A DNA stretch of 63,004 nucleotides from Chloroflexota bacterium (GTDB taxonomy: Bacteria; Chloroflexota; Anaerolineae; UBA4142), in the NCBI GenBank assembly GCA_016865935.1, contig VGOB01000002.1, positions 1 through 63,004 of the forward strand, given 5' to 3'. Under the pieces are notes generated by a model. It was not told where the DNA came from. It made no database searches and was given only the letters and a program-made list of their open reading frames with translations. Position numbers and translations under genes: made by a program. Positions 22,088-61,934 of this stretch are shown here, in pieces. Each line of letters begins with the position of its first letter. The first letter of the stretch is position 1.

Positions 22088-22147
22088 CCCCCACCCTACC
22101 CTCCCCCGTTCGCTCAGCGAACGGGGGAGGGTTTGGGTAGGGGTGGG
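22088..22147. repeat. Long palindrome, CCCTACCCTCCCCC class
   Basis: A hairpin with arms of about 26 bases (CCCTCCCCCGTTCGCT pairs with AGCGAACGGGGGAGGG, then CACCCTACC pairs with GGGTAGGGGTG). It starts at the etfA stop and ends just before ppnP. A related palindrome lies inside pxpC at 54003-54040. Confidence 0.82.
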
Positions 22148-50007: not shown

Positions 50008-51243
50008 GTGCAACTGATCGGCGCGTCAAGTTTACCTGAGGATTTGACGCCGACGCAAAAGAAAAATTTTCTGAACGTCCAGATTGACGGCATCGCGATT
50101 GGGCTGGCGAGCGCGGCAAGTCCATTCTTGCCGGTTTTCCTCGCGCGGCTCGGCGCGACGAATTTCCAGGTCGGCTTGTTAACCGCGATGCCGGGCGTGA
50201 CCGGCTTGATCTTGGCGATCATCGTCGGACGATTTTTGCAGACGCGGCGCCAGGTGGTGCCGTGGTACAGCGCGGGGCGCTTGATGGTCGTCTCGTGCTA
50301 CGCGTTGACCGGACTCGTGCCGTTCATCGTCCCGTATGAATTCCAAGTGATCGCGGTCTTGGTGATCTGGGCGTTCGCGACGTTGCCGCAAACGCTCGTC
50401 AATGTCTGTTTTGGCGTCGTGATGAACGCGGTTGCCGGTCCCAAACATCGGTACGATCTGATGAGTCGGCGGTGGTCAACCTTGGGCTTTGTGCAAGCCG
50501 TCACGGTGGCGATCGTCGGACAAGTTTTGGATCGGCTCGGTTTTCCGTTCAACTATCAGATCGTATTCATCGGGCTTTCATTGGGCGGCTTGATCAGTTT
50601 TTATTATTCGAGTCACATCGCGCTGCCGGATGCCGAACCGCCACCCAGGTCGGACGAATCGGCGCGTGTGCGCGCGCGGAATTTCGTCGCGTTGATTTGC
50701 AGTCAGCCGGAGTTCGTCTCGTTTATGTTCAAGCGGTTTGTCTACATTTCCGGGACGACGCTCGCGGTGCCGTTGTTTCCGCTGTACTATGTGCGGCAAG
50801 TGCAAGCGACCGACGCGTGGATCGGGATGATCAATATGGCGCACACCGCGATTATGTTGGTGGGCTATTTGTTCTGGTCGCATCAATCGAAACGGCGCGG
50901 CGGACGCTTTGTATTGTTGTGGACGACGCTGGTGATGTCGCTCTATCCGGTGCTCACCGCGCTGACGTTGCAAGTCGAAGTGATCGTGCTGTACGCCGTC
51001 ATCGCCGGAATCTTTCAAGCGGGGCTCGACCTGGTTTTCTTCGACGAGCTGATGAAGACGTTCCCCGCCCAGTACAGCGCGACATTCGTTTCGATTGCGC
51101 AAAGTCTGCAACACCTCGCGACGGTGGCGGCGCCGCTCGTGGGAACACTGCTCGCCGATCAGATCGGGATCGGCGGCGCGCTGATCGTGAGCGGCGCGTT
51201 GCGGTTGGTGGGGTTTGCGCTGTTCGCGGCAGGGAAAAGATGA
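50008..51243 (+). CDS. MFS transporter
   Basis: A 411-residue major facilitator protein with about 11-12 helices. Start GTG at 50008 with AAAGAGG upstream. Visible segments: 'VGLLTAMPGVTGLILAIIVG', 'VVSCYALTGLVPFIVPYEF', 'AVTVAIVGQVLDRLGFPF', 'VVMSLYPVLTALTLQVEVIV'-like and 'IGIGGALIVSGALRLVGFAL'. The loop 'GRFLQTRRQVVPWYSAGRLM' between helices 2 and 3 is the MFS signature region. The transported compound is unknown. It is convergent with the GNAT gene across a long AGGATGA repeat. Confidence 0.88.
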   Translation: MQLIGASSLPEDLTPTQKKNFLNVQIDGIAIGLASAASPFLPVFLARLGATNFQVGLLTAMPGVTGLILAIIVGRFLQTRRQVVPWYSAGRLMVVSCYALTGLVPFIVPYEFQVIAVLVIWAFATLPQTLVNVCFGVVMNAVAGPKHRYDLMSRRWSTLGFVQAVTVAIVGQVLDRLGFPFNYQIVFIGLSLGGLISFYYSSHIALPDAEPPPRSDESARVRARNFVALICSQPEFVSFMFKRFVYISGTTLAVPLFPLYYVRQVQATDAWIGMINMAHTAIMLVGYLFWSHQSKRRGGRFVLLWTTLVMSLYPVLTALTLQVEVIVLYAVIAGIFQAGLDLVFFDELMKTFPAQYSATFVSIAQSLQHLATVAAPLVGTLLADQIGIGGALIVSGALRLVGFALFAAGKR

Positions 51244-51325
51244 AAGATGAGAGATGAAAGATGAAAAATTTCATCTTCGTTCTTCCTTTTTTCATCCTTC
51301 ATCCTTCATCCCTCATCCTTCTGCC
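51240..51325. repeat. Inverted word-repeat, word AAGATGA / TTCATCCT
   Basis: GATGAAAGATGAGAGATGAA pairs with TTCATCCTTCATCCTTCATC. It joins the ends of two convergent genes and encodes the KAEG tail of the GNAT protein. Confidence 0.85.
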
Positions 51326-52455
51326 TTTGTTGCGCGCTGATAAACGCGATGATTCTTGTACGGCTTGGCGCCAACATTCCCAAGGTCTTGGCGCATTTGC
51401 GCGGCGGTTTCGGCGACCTGGGTCAGATCGCCGTGGTCGAAGTGAAAGCCGGGCGCGCGAAGCGTCTGCTCCATCTCCGAGTACATCAGCGCGTTGCCGC
51501 CGATGCCTTGAAACTCCGGCAGAATTCCCGCGCCGTTGAGCGTGATCCAATTCGTCCGCCGCATTTCGATTAGCAGATCGATCAAGCCGAACGGAAAAAG
51601 ATGCCCGCGCGCGCGCTGCAGCGCGGCGGAGACATCGGGGAACGCGAACACGAAACCGACGACCGCGTCGTCGTGCGCGATCACCTTGATCAAACGCGGA
51701 TCGGCGATCAGCAAAATATTGTCGAGAATGAATTTGATCTCGCGCGCGGTCAGCGGATAATATTCCCAGTTGTTGACGAACGCGTGATTGTACGCGCGTC
51801 CGATGCGCTCCGCCCACGCGATCAATTCGCGTTTGTGTTTGAACTTGATCACCCGCAGATTGCCGCGCTTGCCCGCGCGCGCGGCGATCCGGCGGACGCG
51901 TTCGGGCATCTTGAAATCGGCGCCCAGATAGCACGAGACGAAATCCACTTCTTTGGTGAAACCCAGGTTTTCGATCAGGCGCGCATAGTACGGATAGTTG
52001 TAATTCATCATCGTCATCACTTGACGATGCGCGAACCCTTCGACGAGGATGCCGTAGCCGTCGAGCGCGCCAAAGCCCTTGGGTCCGACGACGCGATTCA
52101 AACCGCGCGCGCGCGCCCACGCGAATACTTGCTCGAACAACGCGTGCGCGGCTTCTTGATCGTCCTCGCAATCGAACAGATAGAATTGCGCTTGGCGCGT
52201 TTTGTGGTACTCGTTGAACCGACGATTCTCGAGCGCGGCGACGCGTCCCACCTCGCGACCATCGCGCGTCGCGATAAAGAAATCCGCGTCCGAATGTTCG
52301 TAGAACGGATGCTTGGCGCGGTTCAACTGCAATTCCGCGTCGACGAATAATGGCGGCACCCACTGCTTGCACTTTGCGTACAATCGAAACGGAATTTGAA
52401 CATAGCGACGAACGTGCTTTTTGTTTGTCGGGTCAATTTTTTCGATCGTGAGCAT
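51313..52455 (-). CDS. GNAT-like N-acyltransferase (YghO-type)
   Basis: A 380-residue acyltransferase-like protein of the YghO type, with two GNAT-like folds. Conserved-looking segments: 'QWVPPLFVDAELQLNRAKHP', 'FFIATRDGREVGRVAALEN', 'YLFDCEDDQEAAHALFEQ', 'VVGPKGFGALDGYGILVEGF', 'YYARLIENLGFTKEVDF' and 'WITLNGAGILPEFQGIGGNA' (acyl-CoA pyrophosphate loop). The substrate is unknown. ACAAGGAGG precedes the ATG. A second frame over the same DNA lacks these features. Confidence 0.85.
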   Translation of the reverse strand: MLTIEKIDPTNKKHVRRYVQIPFRLYAKCKQWVPPLFVDAELQLNRAKHPFYEHSDADFFIATRDGREVGRVAALENRRFNEYHKTRQAQFYLFDCEDDQEAAHALFEQVFAWARARGLNRVVGPKGFGALDGYGILVEGFAHRQVMTMMNYNYPYYARLIENLGFTKEVDFVSCYLGADFKMPERVRRIAARAGKRGNLRVIKFKHKRELIAWAERIGRAYNHAFVNNWEYYPLTAREIKFILDNILLIADPRLIKVIAHDDAVVGFVFAFPDVSAALQRARGHLFPFGLIDLLIEMRRTNWITLNGAGILPEFQGIGGNALMYSEMEQTLRAPGFHFDHGDLTQVAETAAQMRQDLGNVGAKPYKNHRVYQRATKAEG

Positions 52456-52797: not shown

Positions 52798-53673
52798 ATG
52801 TCCAAAGTTGCGATTGTGACTGACAGCGCCGCGAGTATTCCGGAAGCGCTCATCGAACGCTTGAACATTCATTGGGTGCCGTACTACATTCATCGCGGAC
52901 AAGAGGTGTTGCGCGATTTGGTGACGCTTCAGCGCGATGCGTTTTACAAGTGGTTGCCCACCGCGCGCGAGTTACCCAAGACGGCTAGCCCCGGTCCCGG
53001 CGATTACGTGGAGCTCTACGAGCGACTCGCGCAAAATCAAGGCGCGCGCGAAATCGTCAGCATCCACATGACCTCGAAGGGGAGCGGCGCGTACCAAGCC
53101 GCGCGCATCGCCAAAGAAACGCTCGCCGAAAAAATTCCGCACGTGCGCGTCGAAGTGATTGACACGCTGAACGTTTCGATGTGTCAGGGTTGGATGGTGA
53201 TCGGAGCCGCGCGCGCTGCGCGCGCAGGCAAATCGTTCGACGACATCGTGAATCAAGTCAAAGCGATGATGCCGGTGACGCGGATGATTCAGACGGCGGA
53301 CACGCTCAAATATTTGTATATGGGCGGGCGCATCGGCAGAGCCAAACATCTGGTTGGATCGTTGTTGAACATCAAGCCGTTGATTGGAATGCAAGACGGC
53401 GTGATCATCCCGTTGGGTCAGGTGCGTAGCCGTCTCCAAGCGTATGAAGCAATGGCGCAAATGATCGAAACCGCCGTAGGCAAAATGGGCAAGATCAAAA
53501 TCGCGTACGTGCACGCGGCGGCGCAAGAGGAAGCGGAAAAGATCAAAAAGTTGGTCGAAGAGCGCTTGACGTGTGTGGAATCGCTGATTGCGGAATTGTC
53601 TCCCGCGCTCGGCGTGCATACCGGACCTGGGACGGCGGGAGTGTGCTACTATCCTGTAAAGGATGAAGGATGA
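52798..53673 (+). CDS. DegV family fatty-acid-binding protein
   Basis: A 291-residue DegV/FakB-like protein. Start at ATG 52798 after AAGGAG. Motifs: 'VAIVTDSAASIPEALIERL', 'HWVPYYIHRGQEVLRD', 'LPKTASPGPGDYVELYERLA' (T-S-x-P-x-x-x-D signature), 'IVSIHMTSKGSGAYQAARIA', 'DTLNVSMCQGWMVIGAARAA' and 'LKYLYMGGRIGRAKHLVGSL'. FakB proteins hold a fatty acid for FakA kinase; no fakA is visible. The final residues (VKDEG) enter the next repeat. Confidence 0.92.
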   Translation: MSKVAIVTDSAASIPEALIERLNIHWVPYYIHRGQEVLRDLVTLQRDAFYKWLPTARELPKTASPGPGDYVELYERLAQNQGAREIVSIHMTSKGSGAYQAARIAKETLAEKIPHVRVEVIDTLNVSMCQGWMVIGAARAARAGKSFDDIVNQVKAMMPVTRMIQTADTLKYLYMGGRIGRAKHLVGSLLNIKPLIGMQDGVIIPLGQVRSRLQAYEAMAQMIETAVGKMGKIKIAYVHAAAQEEAEKIKKLVEERLTCVESLIAELSPALGVHTGPGTAGVCYYPVKDEG

Positions 53674-53740
53674 AGGATGAAGGATGAAGGATGAAGGCGG
53701 AACGCGGAAGAATGAAGGCAGAAGGATGAAGGATGAAGAA
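53660..53740. repeat. Direct word-repeat, word AAGGATGAAGGATGA
   Basis: AGGATGAAGGATGAAGGATG continues through GGAATGAAGGCAGAAGGATG. It begins within the DegV stop region. Same word as 38482, 51240 and 61855, but without a clear inverted half. Confidence 0.83.
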
Positions 53741-53784: not shown

Positions 53785-54714
53785 TCATTCGCGGATTATT
53801 GTTTTACCTTCAAGAGTCACCGCGCGGAACATTAGCCGGTCACCGGGGACACTTTGCGCGACGCGCGCAATGTCTTCGCTGACGACCATCGCAATGATCG
53901 GATAGCCGCCGGTTGTTTGATGATCTGCCATCAGGACGATGGGTTGTCCGTCCGGTGGAACCTGGATCGCGCCGAACGGAACGCCGCACGAGATCAATTC
54001 GACCTCACCCCTAACCCCTCTCCTGAGAGGAGAGGGGGCAATCAACCGATACCCCATCCGATCCGCCGTCTCCGCAACGATGAACTCTGCGCGCGTCAAC
54101 GCGGCGATTGCTTCCGGCGTAAACCAATCGGCGTGCGGACCCAGGATGACGCGAATGTTCGTAGTAGGCGATTCATCGCCATCAGTTGCGCTAAAGCGCA
54201 TACTACTAACGCCCACGCTGCGCCCCGCCGCCGCAACCAGATCGTCCAGCGTTGGCGCGCCGATGTGAATGTGATCGCCCGCTGCGAGCGCGCGTCCTTC
54301 CAACCCTCCGAACTTGCCGCGCAGAAATGTTGACTTGCTCCCCAGGACGCGCGGCACATCAATTCCTCCGTGAATCGCGAGATAAATCCATCCGCCTGCG
54401 CGCTTGGGCGCGATTTCAATCGTCGCGCCCGCGCGCGCGAAAACGCTCATTCCCATCGGCAGCGCGCGTCCGTTGATTTCGAACCGCGCGTCCGCGCCGG
54501 TCAGCGCGATGAGATGCGGCGCGTTCGTGCGCAGCGCGACCGGCGAATGAATTTCGAGCGCGGCTTCGTCCCGTGAATTGCGGACGAGTTGATTGGCAAC
54601 GCTTAGCGCGGGCAAATCCATCGCGCCGGAAACCGGCACGCCGTATGCTTGATAGCCCCAGCGTCCGGCGTCTTGGATCGTCGTGAAAAGTCCGGAATCG
54701 AGAATTCGTAACAT
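53785..54714 (-). CDS. pxpC: 5-oxoprolinase subunit C (PxpC/KipA), with in-frame palindrome
   Basis: A 309-residue biotin-dependent-carboxyltransferase-type subunit. With PxpA and PxpB it opens 5-oxoproline to glutamate using ATP. Motifs: 'LRILDSGLFTTIQDAGRWGY', 'YGVPVSGAMDLPALSVANQL', 'ALEIHSPVALR', 'GGWIYLAIHGGIDVPRVLGS', 'VPFGAIQVPPDGQPIVLMAD' and 'QTTGGYPIIAMV'. Between 'MGYRLI' and 'VELISCGV' the segment APSPLRRGVRGE is encoded by a palindromic repeat (54003-54040), which interrupts an otherwise standard region. Last gene of pxpABC. Confidence 0.92.
   Translation of the reverse strand: MLRILDSGLFTTIQDAGRWGYQAYGVPVSGAMDLPALSVANQLVRNSRDEAALEIHSPVALRTNAPHLIALTGADARFEINGRALPMGMSVFARAGATIEIAPKRAGGWIYLAIHGGIDVPRVLGSKSTFLRGKFGGLEGRALAAGDHIHIGAPTLDDLVAAAGRSVGVSSMRFSATDGDESPTTNIRVILGPHADWFTPEAIAALTRAEFIVAETADRMGYRLIAPSPLRRGVRGEVELISCGVPFGAIQVPPDGQPIVLMADHQTTGGYPIIAMVVSEDIARVAQSVPGDRLMFRAVTLEGKTIIRE
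54003..54040. repeat. CCCTAACCCC-type palindrome inside pxpC
   Basis: CCTCACCCCTAACCCCTCTC, then arms CCCCTCTCCT / AGGAGAGGGG with loop GAG. It is in frame in pxpC and encodes APSPLRRGVRGE on the minus strand. It resembles the palindrome at 22088-22147. Confidence 0.82.
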
Positions 54715-54715
54715 T

Positions 54716-54784
54716 GGGAATGACCGACGACCGATGACCGATGACGGTGGACCTTGTCGGTCGTCCGTCTTCGGTCATCCGTCA
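54716..54784. repeat. Inverted word-repeat, word GACCGACGACCGATGACC
   Basis: TGACCGACGACCGATGACCG pairs with CGGTCGTCCGTCTTCGGTCA. It separates pxpB and pxpC inside their operon. Confidence 0.85.
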
Positions 54785-55438
54785 CCGCGCCACGAATCGC
54801 ACGCGATCAGCCGAGCGCAGCAATGTCGGCGGATCCCAACTCGGGTCGAACAATGACAACTCGGTGCGCCCGATGATGCGCCAGCCGCCCGGCGACTCCA
54901 TCGGATAAACTCCGGTCTGACGACCGGCGATGCCGACCGATCCGGCGGGAACGCGCGTGCGCGGCGTTTCCATTCGCGGCGCGGCGATTTGTTCCGGCAC
55001 CGATCCCAGGTACGCAAACCCCGGCGTGAAACCGACAAAGTAGACGCGGTAGATGACGCTCGCGTGCAATCGAATCACATCGTCTTCCGCGATGTCGTTG
55101 TGCCGCGCGATGAACGCAAGATCGGGACCGCACTCGCCGCCATAGCGCGTGGGAATTTCGACAAGGCGCGGGGCGCGGGGCGAATTTGTCGCCGGTGCGC
55201 TGATCGTGTCTTGTATGATCGCGCGCATTGTGACGAAGGGCGCGCGTTGTGGATCATAGCAAACCAGGAGCGACGAGTACGCCGGAACAAGGTCGCGGAT
55301 TTCAGAACGATTCTGCGCGCGCAACGCGTGGGCGAGCGCGTGGACGTGATCGTTGATCGCGTCGTTGATCTCATCGGCGAATTCGATCAAGATCGCGGCA
55401 TCACCGGCGGGGAGAAGGCGGGGCTGGGGATGAATCAT
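54782..55438 (-). CDS. pxpB: 5-oxoprolinase subunit B (PxpB/KipI)
   Basis: A 218-residue KipI/PxpB protein. I start at the ATG 55438; upstream in-frame residues come from the ACAAGG repeat. Motifs: '[20 protein letters not shown]', '[13 protein letters not shown]', '[20 protein letters not shown]', '[20 protein letters not shown]', '[20 protein letters not shown]' and '[20 protein letters not shown]'. It is the partner of PxpC in the 5-oxoprolinase complex. Two word-repeats separate it from its neighbours. Confidence 0.93.
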
Positions 55439-55442
55439 TTCT

Positions 55443-55520
55443 GAGTGGAAAGACAAGGTGGCAAGGAGACAAGGAGACAAGGAGAAATTGTCACCTTGTC
55501 GCCCTGTCTCCTTGTCTCAA
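55443..55520. repeat. Inverted word-repeat, word AAGGAGACAAGG / CCTTGTCTCC
   Basis: GGCAAGGAGACAAGGAGACA pairs with TGTCACCTTGTCGCCCTGTC and CTCCTTGTCTC. Its right part overlaps the end of pxpA and encodes that protein's tail. Confidence 0.86.
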
Positions 55521-56270
55521 TGAGGAAATCACTATGCTGTTCTGTTCCAAAGCATCGCGCACCGCGCGCAAAATTTCCACCGCGCCAGGCGAATCGCCGT
55601 GAACACAGAGCGTATCCACCGGCATCGCGATCGTTTCACCATTGGGCGTCGTCACGGTTTGCGTGCGCGCCATTTGCAACGCCTGCGCCGCCGCGCGACG
55701 CGGATCGTCAATCAGCGCGCCCGGTTCGCGGCGCGAACGGAGCGTGCCATCGCGATTGTACGCGCGGTCGGCGAACCCTTCGCGCGCAAAGCGGATGCCT
55801 TGCTCGCGCGCCGCGTGTTCCATCGCCGCGCCGGGTTGCCCGACGAGAATCAAGTTCGCGTCGAAACGCGCGATGGCGCGCGCAATCGCGTTGGCAATCG
55901 GCGGGCGCGTTGCGGCGAGGTTGTAGAGCGCGCCGTGCGGCTTGATATGCGCGAGCGTCGCGCCTTCCGCGCGCGCGAACGCGGCAAGCGCGCCGATTTG
56001 GTACAGCACGTCGTTTTCGATCTCGTCCGGCGTCGCGTCGAGCGCGCGGCGACCAAAGCCGACGAGATCAGCAAAGCCGGGATGCGCGCCTAGCGCGACG
56101 CCGTGCTGAATCGCGAGGCGGACGGTGCGCGCGATCACCTGCGGATCGCCCGCGTGAAAACCGCACGCGATATTCGCGGAGGTGATGAGCGGCATAATTG
56201 CCGCGTCGCTGCCAAGCGTGTACGCGCCGAAACTTTCGCCAAGATCGCAGTTCAAGTCAATTCGCATCAT
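55491..56270 (-). CDS. pxpA: 5-oxoprolinase subunit A (PxpA, LamB/YcsF family)
   Basis: A 259-residue LamB/YcsF protein. Motifs: '[20 protein letters not shown]', '[20 protein letters not shown]', '[20 protein letters not shown]', '[13 protein letters not shown]' and '[20 protein letters not shown]', all family hallmarks. The last ~12 residues ([11 protein letters not shown]) are encoded by the ACAAGG repeat and replace the usual end. The promoter at 56280-56307 leaves almost no leader, so translation may be leaderless. First gene of pxpABC. Confidence 0.93.
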
Positions 56271-59493: not shown

Positions 59494-61851
59494 ATGACCA
59501 CAGCTACGCTCTCGCGTTCCTCCCCGCTCGACTCGCTCGTCCGACGCTATCGCGAGTACAGACTGATCGCGCGCGATCCCGTGCTCCTGATTGGGTTGCT
59601 CGTCACGGGCGCATTTCTGCTGACGTTCATCGTTTGGCCCCTGGCACGCGTGATCTGGCAGGGCTTTTTCGTCGGCGCGGGCAAGCCGAACGAGGGCGCA
59701 TTCAGTCTGCAGTATTTCCAGTACTATATCGATCCCACCTTCACGGCGCAATACACGCAGATTTTTTGGTGGACGATCACTATGGGCGTCGGCGCGGCGA
59801 TCGGCAGCACGCTCCTCGGTTTTTTGTTCGCGTACACGATGGTGCGCTGCAACATTCCGTTCAAAGGCGTCGTGCATGCGCTCACCCTCGTCCCGACGAT
59901 TTCGCCGCCCTTCGCCATCGCGCTGGCTACGATCCTATTGTTCGGGCGTTCGGGTCTCGTCACCAAAGGTATCCTGAACATTCAATTCAAGCCCGGCGTC
60001 AACGACATTTACGGACTCGACGGCTTGATCTTCGTCCAGATCATCACCTTCTTTCCGGTCGCGTACCTCATCATTCGCGGCTTGCTCGAACGGATCGATC
60101 CTTCGATGGAAGAAGCCGCGCTCGCGCTCGGCGCCAGCAAGTGGCACATTTTTCGCACGATCACACTCCCGTTGCTGACGCCCGGCATCGCCGGCTCGTT
60201 CTTGTTGATGTTCGTCGAATCGCTCGCCGATTTGGGGAATCCGATTTTTATCGGCGGCAACATTACCGTGCTTTCGACGCAAATCTGGATTGCGGTGAAC
60301 GGCGAATTCAATCAACAAAAAGGCGCGGCCTTGTCGCTGATTTTGCTGTTGCCGACCTTGACGGTGTTTCTCCTGCAGCGCTACTGGGTCTCGCGTAAAT
60401 CGTACATCTCCGTCACCGGCAAGCCGACGGGCGGCGGCGCGGGCTTTGTCAAAGAGCCGCTGATTCGCTGGACGTTTATCACCTTGACCTTCCTCGTCCT
60501 TGCTTTGATCGTCGTGCTCTACGGCGCGATCTTCTTCGGCGCGATTACTACGCGGTGGGGGATTGACTATTCGCTCGACTTTTCGCACTTTGCCAGCGCG
60601 TTCGATCGCGGTCTGAAGCCGATTCTCGATACGACCTTCCTCTCCGCGCTCGCCACGCCGATTGCGGGGATTGCCGGAATGATCGTTGCGTTTCTCGTCG
60701 TCCGCAAAACGTTCAGCGGCAAAGAAGCGGTGGATTTCACGTCGAACCTGGGCGGCGCGGTGCCCGGCACGATTCTCGGCATCGGCTACATCATCGCGTT
60801 CATCCAAGCGCCGCTGATCGTCGTCGCGCTGATTTTCGTCGCGCTGGCGTACTATCTCGTTTCATCAAGCGCGAAGAATTTCTGGGCGCGCACCGCGTTG
60901 CTGATGAGCGGCACGCTCATCGGCATTGGGATCAACTTTTTGAATCTCACCGAAAAAGCGCGCCAGCCCTTGCTCGCCAATCCGCTGATCGCGCCATTCG
61001 CTGGTTTGCCGATCATCGATCAGCAAACCTGGATGATGCTACTCGCGGCGATCCTGGTGATAGTTGGGGTTGCGAGTATTTTCTTCGCGGAGCGCAAGGC
61101 GCGGCGCGGCGCGCTGATCGTCCTGATCGTATTGGCGGCGTATTTGCTCTCGCGCCTGTTCATTCAGGACTGGACGCTGCCGCTCGTCGTGTGGGGCAAG
61201 GAACTGGGCGGGATCTATTTCCCGAAAATCTTTGCTAGTCTTGCCGCGTGGATCAATCTTTTCTTCCAACCGCCGCTCGCGATTTTGGGATTCACGTACA
61301 CGGTGATCGCCGGTTTTCTCATCAATACGTGGACGCGCCGCGCGCGCGGGATCGGAATGTTGGCGTTGCTCGCGGTGTGCAGCGCGCTAACGTTCTACGG
61401 CGAGACGCTCGCGCTCGTCGGGTCGCCGTATATCATTCTGGCGGCGTACGCGGTGCGCAGTCTGCCCGCGTCGGTGCGCGCCGGCGTCGCGTCGTTGCAG
61501 CAAATCGATCCTGCGATCGAAGAGGCATCCACGAACCTGGGCGCAGACGCGCAACTGACGTTTCGCCAGGTCACGCTGCCGTTGATTCTGCCCGCATTCG
61601 TCGCCGGGTTGATTTTCAGTTTCGCGCGTCATATGACCTCGCTCTCGGCGATCATTTTCCTGTCGTCTGCCAAGTGGCCCATCCTGACCGCGCTGATTAT
61701 GAGCGAAGTCGAACAAGGCGGTTTCTCGTTATCGGCGGCGTACTCGGTCATTCTGATCGTCATCGTTCTCGCCGCGATCGGCTTGATGTACCTCTGGGCG
61801 GGGCGCGCGTTCCGCACGACCGGGATGGAAACGACGCTGGGAGCAGGATAA
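59494..61851 (+). CDS. Fused ABC permease (FbpB-like) with a large membrane insertion
   Basis: A 785-residue permease with two transport domains in one chain, as in FbpB. The first EAA loop is 'EEAALALGASKWHIFRTITL' (about 205-224); the second is 'EEASTNLGADAQLTFRQVTL' (about 675-694). Usual FbpB proteins have about 550 residues. Here about 200 extra residues, with five or six more helices ('ALLMSGTLIGIGINFLNLT', 'WMMLLAAILVIVGVASIFFA', 'ALIVLIVLAAYLLSRLFI', 'AILGFTYTVIAGFLINTW'), lie inside the second domain between 'GTILGIGYIIAFIQAP' and 'PYIILAAYAVRSLPASVRAG'. ATG at 59494 preferred over a TTG two codons earlier. Confidence 0.9.
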   Translation: MTTATLSRSSPLDSLVRRYREYRLIARDPVLLIGLLVTGAFLLTFIVWPLARVIWQGFFVGAGKPNEGAFSLQYFQYYIDPTFTAQYTQIFWWTITMGVGAAIGSTLLGFLFAYTMVRCNIPFKGVVHALTLVPTISPPFAIALATILLFGRSGLVTKGILNIQFKPGVNDIYGLDGLIFVQIITFFPVAYLIIRGLLERIDPSMEEAALALGASKWHIFRTITLPLLTPGIAGSFLLMFVESLADLGNPIFIGGNITVLSTQIWIAVNGEFNQQKGAALSLILLLPTLTVFLLQRYWVSRKSYISVTGKPTGGGAGFVKEPLIRWTFITLTFLVLALIVVLYGAIFFGAITTRWGIDYSLDFSHFASAFDRGLKPILDTTFLSALATPIAGIAGMIVAFLVVRKTFSGKEAVDFTSNLGGAVPGTILGIGYIIAFIQAPLIVVALIFVALAYYLVSSSAKNFWARTALLMSGTLIGIGINFLNLTEKARQPLLANPLIAPFAGLPIIDQQTWMMLLAAILVIVGVASIFFAERKARRGALIVLIVLAAYLLSRLFIQDWTLPLVVWGKELGGIYFPKIFASLAAWINLFFQPPLAILGFTYTVIAGFLINTWTRRARGIGMLALLAVCSALTFYGETLALVGSPYIILAAYAVRSLPASVRAGVASLQQIDPAIEEASTNLGADAQLTFRQVTLPLILPAFVAGLIFSFARHMTSLSAIIFLSSAKWPILTALIMSEVEQGGFSLSAAYSVILIVIVLAAIGLMYLWAGRAFRTTGMETTLGAG

Positions 61852-61854
61852 AGT

Positions 61855-61923
61855 CAGAAGGCGGAAGGATGAAGGATGAATCTTTTTTCTCTTTCATCCT
61901 TCATCCTTCATCCCTCATCTTTC
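61855..61923. repeat. Inverted word-repeat, word AAGGATGAAGGATGA / TCATCCTTCATCC
   Basis: CGGAAGGATGAAGGATGAAT pairs with TTTCATCCTTCATCCTTCAT. It lies between permease and ATPase genes within the operon and ends just before GGAG of the ATPase gene. Confidence 0.87.
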
Positions 61924-61934
61924 GGAGTTTTGAA

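Follow-up and report, generated by a model that had tools for sequence, protein, structure and literature searches.

In-frame palindromes with the layout of an intrastrand triplex motif in pxpC and other genes of an Anaerolineae genome

How a palindrome comes to lie in frame inside a conserved enzyme gene is the question raised by a pxpC gene in the draft genome of a Chloroflexota bacterium. An earlier note on the first 63,004 nucleotides of contig VGOB01000002.1, here called the window, described a palindrome lying in frame in pxpC, at a place where PxpC/KipA proteins were said to run on normally, and placed it at 53785-54714. The palindrome is indeed in frame; those coordinates are those of the whole ORF, and the element itself, which we call element B, occupies 54001-54037. 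Both sequence and fold searches returned E. coli YbgK (5dud) as the best PDB relative of the ORF product, which was identified as PxpC; pxpB and pxpA are its operon neighbors (Table 1). The pxpC ORF is host to two palindromes, element B and a further one, element A, that had gone unlisted in the earlier note. Tandem heptamer repeats (AAGGATG or its complement, e.g., at 53660-53737, 51236-51328 and 61845-61930) flank many genes of the window, and the ORF with its end at 53673 extends into an array of this type.

Table 1. Positions of pxpC, its operon neighbors and the palindromic elements within it
Feature	Position	Strand	Remarks
pxpC, KipA/YbgK family, CT_A_B domain, 309 aa	53785..54714	-	Pfam PF02626, E=3.8e-86
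pxpB, CT_C_D, operon neighbor of pxpC	54782..55480	-	Pfam PF02682, E=1.6e-77
pxpA, LamB/YcsF, operon neighbor of pxpC	55491..56270	-	Pfam PF03746, E=5.6e-104
Element B hairpin CCCCTCTCCT-CTC-AGGAGAGGGG, 10-bp arms, 3-nt loop	54015..54037	-	perfect hairpin
Mirror third arm GGGGTGAGG	54003..54011	-	purine-motif triads allowed at 9/9 positions
Whole element B, translated as residues 226-238 APSPLRRGVRGEV	54001..54037	-	in pxpC frame
Element A, 54 nt, 18 codons, residues 169-186 VSSMRFSATDGDESPTTN	54157..54210	-	palindromic repeat, unrelated to element B

The sequence of the hairpin is as it had been described, CCCCTCTCCT-GAG-AGGAGAGGGG at 54015-54037 with a CCTCACCCCTAA flank directly 5' from 54003. 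It folds at -10.6 kcal/mol as DNA, and its 23-mer had 0 matches at three or fewer mismatches in 100 dinucleotide shuffles. On the minus strand element B reads GCC CCC TCT CCT CTC AGG AGA GGG GTT AGG GGT GAG GTC, which encodes APSPLRRGVRGEV. The spacer TTA (54012-54014) separates the hairpin from the mirror third arm, whose triads would be formed with the purine arm of the hairpin. Element B thus has the architecture of an intrastrand triplex motif (TM), as judged from its sequence, the triplex itself being putative. Reading the window copy as a truncated two-armed element was dropped as the preferred interpretation, since TM in its standard form is a hairpin with one arm.

The alignment that the earlier note had proposed, of 18 PxpC members comprising the window protein and 17 orthologues, found element B absent from 17/17 of the orthologues. 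That part of the account stands; the orthologues do not run on normally at this place, however, since a loop of their own stands there. Between MGYRL and the next conserved stretch, all other PxpC proteins have 10-11 residues (RGAMLARQRAQ in the 82%-identical sister G002, RGVTLARTRAG in L040), as against 14 in the window (IAPSPLRRGVRGEV), which argues that element B replaced the loop rather than being simply added. The element stands in place of about 11 ancestral codons, and position 226 no longer has its glycine, which is nearly invariant elsewhere; with a net change of only +9 nt, or +3 aa, a pure 12-residue addition was rejected. The outcome that the earlier note had named as refuting it, a similar peptide encoded by orthologues without the palindrome, was not obtained; the replaced loop was, however, itself Arg-rich (LARQRAQE, LPRARTGE), and the peptide now in its place has a partial likeness to it, which may account for the tolerance of element B. 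In an AlphaFold model of the window protein (mean pLDDT 88.5), the element B peptide follows strand 221-225 and precedes strand 243-245, with pLDDT values of 81-85 by block, and the PxpC fold is predicted to be retained despite the exchanged loop.

Pattern searches and a covariance model were used to define the element B family, which has about 50 loci in this genome. Its members are 36-52 bp long with conserved arms and variable loops, and the outer arm is the mirror of the purine arm of the hairpin; several copies, that of the window included, have one outer arm only. The B1 subfamily follows the pattern GACCTC[AT]CCCC-N3-CCCCTCTCCT-N3-AGGAGAGGGG-N2-4-GGGG[AT]GAGGTC and the B2 subfamily GACCTAACCCCCAG-CCCCTTCCCT-N3-AGGGAAGGGG...GGGGGATAGGTC. 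Of the 18 B1 copies, 16 have an arm in which 8 or 9 of the 9 positions allow triads, a score reached in 28 of 7200 random draws. All 18 clear B1 copies (18/18) lie in open frames, among them those of RluD, methylases, FAD oxidases and membrane proteins, and most have the same coding frame and a matching codon bias on both sides. Coding calls were made from codon bias, orthologues and Pfam rather than from annotation, and the copies in the linker-type lipoproteins L026 and L028 are weaker cases. A search of Rfam returned only chance matches far below threshold.

The earlier note had also raised the question of whether coding copies favor one frame. When frames are named by the peptide of the inner arm (a, PSPxRRG; b, PLLxGEG; c, PLSxxEER), the 32 coding copies divide 20/11/1 among frames a, b and c. 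If each copy had chosen evenly among its open orientation-frame options, 6.9 copies would be expected in frame c, and the chance of finding none there would be 0.0003 (one was observed). There is a preference, but it is for two of the three frames rather than for a single one.

Element A in pxpC belongs to a repeat, GTTCGTAGTAGGCGATTCATCGCC...GCGCTAAAGCGCATACTACTAAC, that recurs about a dozen times elsewhere, mostly outside genes and in some cases within larger repeats; at least one other copy (C28:26451) sits between flanks coding in the same frame. The sister G002 has the pxpC copy, more distant orthologues are without it, and it is hence the older event of the two. Its peptide has pLDDT below 50 at residues 176-181 of the AlphaFold model and is predicted to be disordered. 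A C-rich palindrome at 22088-22147, directly after a stop codon and ahead of the next start, had been taken for a relative of the pxpC palindrome. This relationship did not hold up: the covariance model of element B gave no match to it at E<=1, and it falls in a set of its own, with about a dozen copies of the CCCTCCCCCGTT type, so that it was rejected as a member of the element B family. The two have in common only a C-rich layout of hairpin plus arm.

Orthologues free of the element were found for most of the genes tested. Relative to orthologues in sister genomes, the net gains are in frame and span +3 to +15 aa: YfhO +12, N6_N4 methylase +11, DUF2298 and PMT-like proteins +10 each, O-antigen ligase +8, restriction helicase +5, PxpC +3, and RluD +12 for its B1 copy and +15 for its B2 copy. 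YfhO carries a near-clean 36-nt insertion, while other genes had about 3-14 ancestral codons overwritten; orthologues of the DUF1156 methylase are too distant for the boundaries of its insert to be placed. Pfam domains continue across the insert in RluD, methylase, ValRS, prephenate dehydrogenase and GH13. The RluD-like pseudouridine synthase at L164:2277-3410 has B1 and B2 in frame at two sites, and its orthologues are without both. Some sites are held in common with relatives: G008 has a B2 copy at the same position in the methylase, and G002 has a degenerate, further interrupted copy of element B at the GlcD site. In this GlcD-like oxidase (L029 at ~3013; G002 orthologue L227), the G002 element is interrupted by a different repeat, CCTTCGACTCCGCTTCGCTCCGCTCAGGAT, and is still in frame, giving nested coding insertions. 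Palindromes of three sequence classes (18 copies of B1, several of B2, and A in pxpC and in at least one more place) therefore lie in coding frames of this genome, mostly with element-free orthologues, which bears out the earlier suggestion that different classes enter coding sequence and keep the frame. Apart from pxpC, element B is in frame in some twenty further genes here, and relatives carry it in housekeeping genes.

Beyond this genome, the element B pattern is spread very unevenly over Chloroflexota, with matches in 87 of 301 genomes. The covariance model found no copy at E<=1e-6 in two sisters of the same genus, with about 147 candidates scored per genome. Another Anaerolineae family was sampled through six genomes, and 14 of the 21 copies taken, which were the first places listed and not random ones, were in frame in genes; these included ValRS, Mfd, kynureninase, GH13 and prephenate dehydrogenase, and the ValRS copy is at the same site in two species. 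Copies sampled in the same manner from five high-copy genomes of other Chloroflexota families had little coding signal and contained stops, and these genomes appear to keep their copies between genes. One MetH-like ORF of another Anaerolineae genome (L275) has several element-derived peptides in one open frame; its product presumably contains an endonuclease-like domain.

We consider it probable, at roughly 0.78, that element B is a dispersed TM-type repeat that has repeatedly landed in genes and persists as an in-frame peptide in tolerant loops. Such a repeat would land again and again inside protein genes of this genome and of some other Anaerolineae, and under purifying selection an event would survive only if the peptide it leaves is open, in frame and placed in a tolerant loop, so that the repeat would persist as translated sequence. 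In pxpC, 13 element-encoded residues would have overwritten a loop, about 11 residues long, that joined two beta strands, the old loop being lost either with the insertion or through later trimming. By analogy with what has been proposed for Rickettsia palindromic elements (RPE), element B may spread as selfish or structure-prone DNA that proteins tolerate. The genome has three Y1_Tnp matches, one of them below the curated cut-off, with no B arm in the flanks examined; a link to RAYT transposases of the REP/REPIN kind was rejected, since the Y1_Tnp genes are not flanked by arms of element B. A weak Y1_Tnp match in L037 (C229), at 2-250, lies near several GGATTCGCAATCC palindromes, with which it possibly forms a REP/transposase pair unrelated to element B.

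It is unlikely that the element is instead functional in place, its peptide or mRNA hairpin being selected as a linker, as a pause in translation or as a signal for RNA stability. The perfect arms maintained in coding copies and the sites common to species (ValRS in two; GlcD; methylase) speak for such a function, but the genes are unrelated, the site is different in each, close orthologues are without the element, and in other families the motif lies between genes. The chances are smaller again that the copies are convergent and were born in place, with misalignment or template switching at quasi-palindromes perfecting C-rich sequence. Nearly every copy has its own loop and spacer bases, inspection by eye of the flanks of full copies showed no target-site duplication of the kind left by MITEs, and the local sequence is usually replaced rather than interrupted, unlike in clean transposition; the last two points, together with the lack of a linked transposase, count against the mobile-repeat explanation. 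Against birth in place, the arms, including the outer GACCTC/GAGGTC, are identical at unrelated loci, the core is common across the phylum, and a C-rich precursor is absent from the orthologous loops; template switching may nevertheless keep the arms perfect after arrival. Mis-assembly or mis-called genes are very improbable, for while this metagenome-assembled genome is a draft of 322 contigs in which short repeats can misjoin, the copy lies within a 63-kb contig and is flanked on either side by conserved pxpC sequence, other copies are on many contigs, and independent genomes have the same pattern.

We lean, with some reserve, toward the broader view that triplex-type palindromes of 36-52 bp have spread into Anaerolineae genes, essential enzymes included, and that recurrent loop replacement has been a source of Pro/Gly/Arg-rich surface loops. 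On that view they would represent a coding-palindrome system built on an intrastrand triplex motif and distinct from the RPE and REP families known so far. Sister species offer sites free of the element, and in other families of the phylum the repeat appears to lie between genes; comparison among them can address by what route the repeats move and to what extent conserved enzymes tolerate having a loop replaced. Peptides encoded by the repeat and of the form PSPxRRGxxGEV and SPPTPLLxGEGRRGEV should be taken as a warning sign in the annotation and alignment of Chloroflexota proteins.

In layout, element B compares with the TM of E. coli (TMECO, earlier the PIT element), an intrastrand triplex motif with the consensus 5'-CCCTCNCCC-N3-6-GGGNGAGGG-N3-GGGNGAGGG (Holder et al. 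2015; PMC4666352). In both, a 3-nt spacer divides a polypyrimidine/polypurine hairpin from a third arm of purines; both have conserved arms, variable loops and many copies, occur in single and in palindromic, two-armed forms, and are patchy between close relatives. The hairpin at 54015-54037 has a 10-bp stem, within the 9-10 bp of TM, and a short 3-nt loop, and the mirror arm of the window copy allows 9/9 triads. The inner arms are related but non-identical (CCCCTCTCCT in element B, CCCTCNCCC in TMECO). The motif has been linked to genome instability in E. coli. In strain K-12, 23/23 TM copies are intergenic (PMC4666352), whereas the B1 copies described here are in coding frames. Intragenic GTAG/CGTC REPs are palindromes of 20-40 bp in ORFs of several bacteria (Di Nocera et al. 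2013; PMC3733652); like the pxpC palindromes, they lie wholly inside ORFs and sometimes occur twice per gene. Element B is unlike them in having no GTAG or CGTC end tag; element A starts with GTTCGTAG. In the open-access literature searched, we found no report of in-frame palindromes in Anaerolineae or of coding triplex-motif copies, and we therefore call element B a new variation on known in-frame palindromes. These are a known curiosity, best described in Rickettsia, and Anaerolineae is an independent lineage. RPE are in-frame palindromes in unrelated, often conserved genes (Ogata et al. 2000; reviewed in PMC2229807 and PMC10969869), and element B is like them in lying in frame in unrelated genes, in having insert-free orthologues and in the presence of more than one family per genome. 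RPE differ in being longer (~105-150 bp, compared with 36-52 bp for element B), unrelated in sequence and from a different phylum, and with element B the local residues are usually replaced; they are nonetheless its closest biological parallel.
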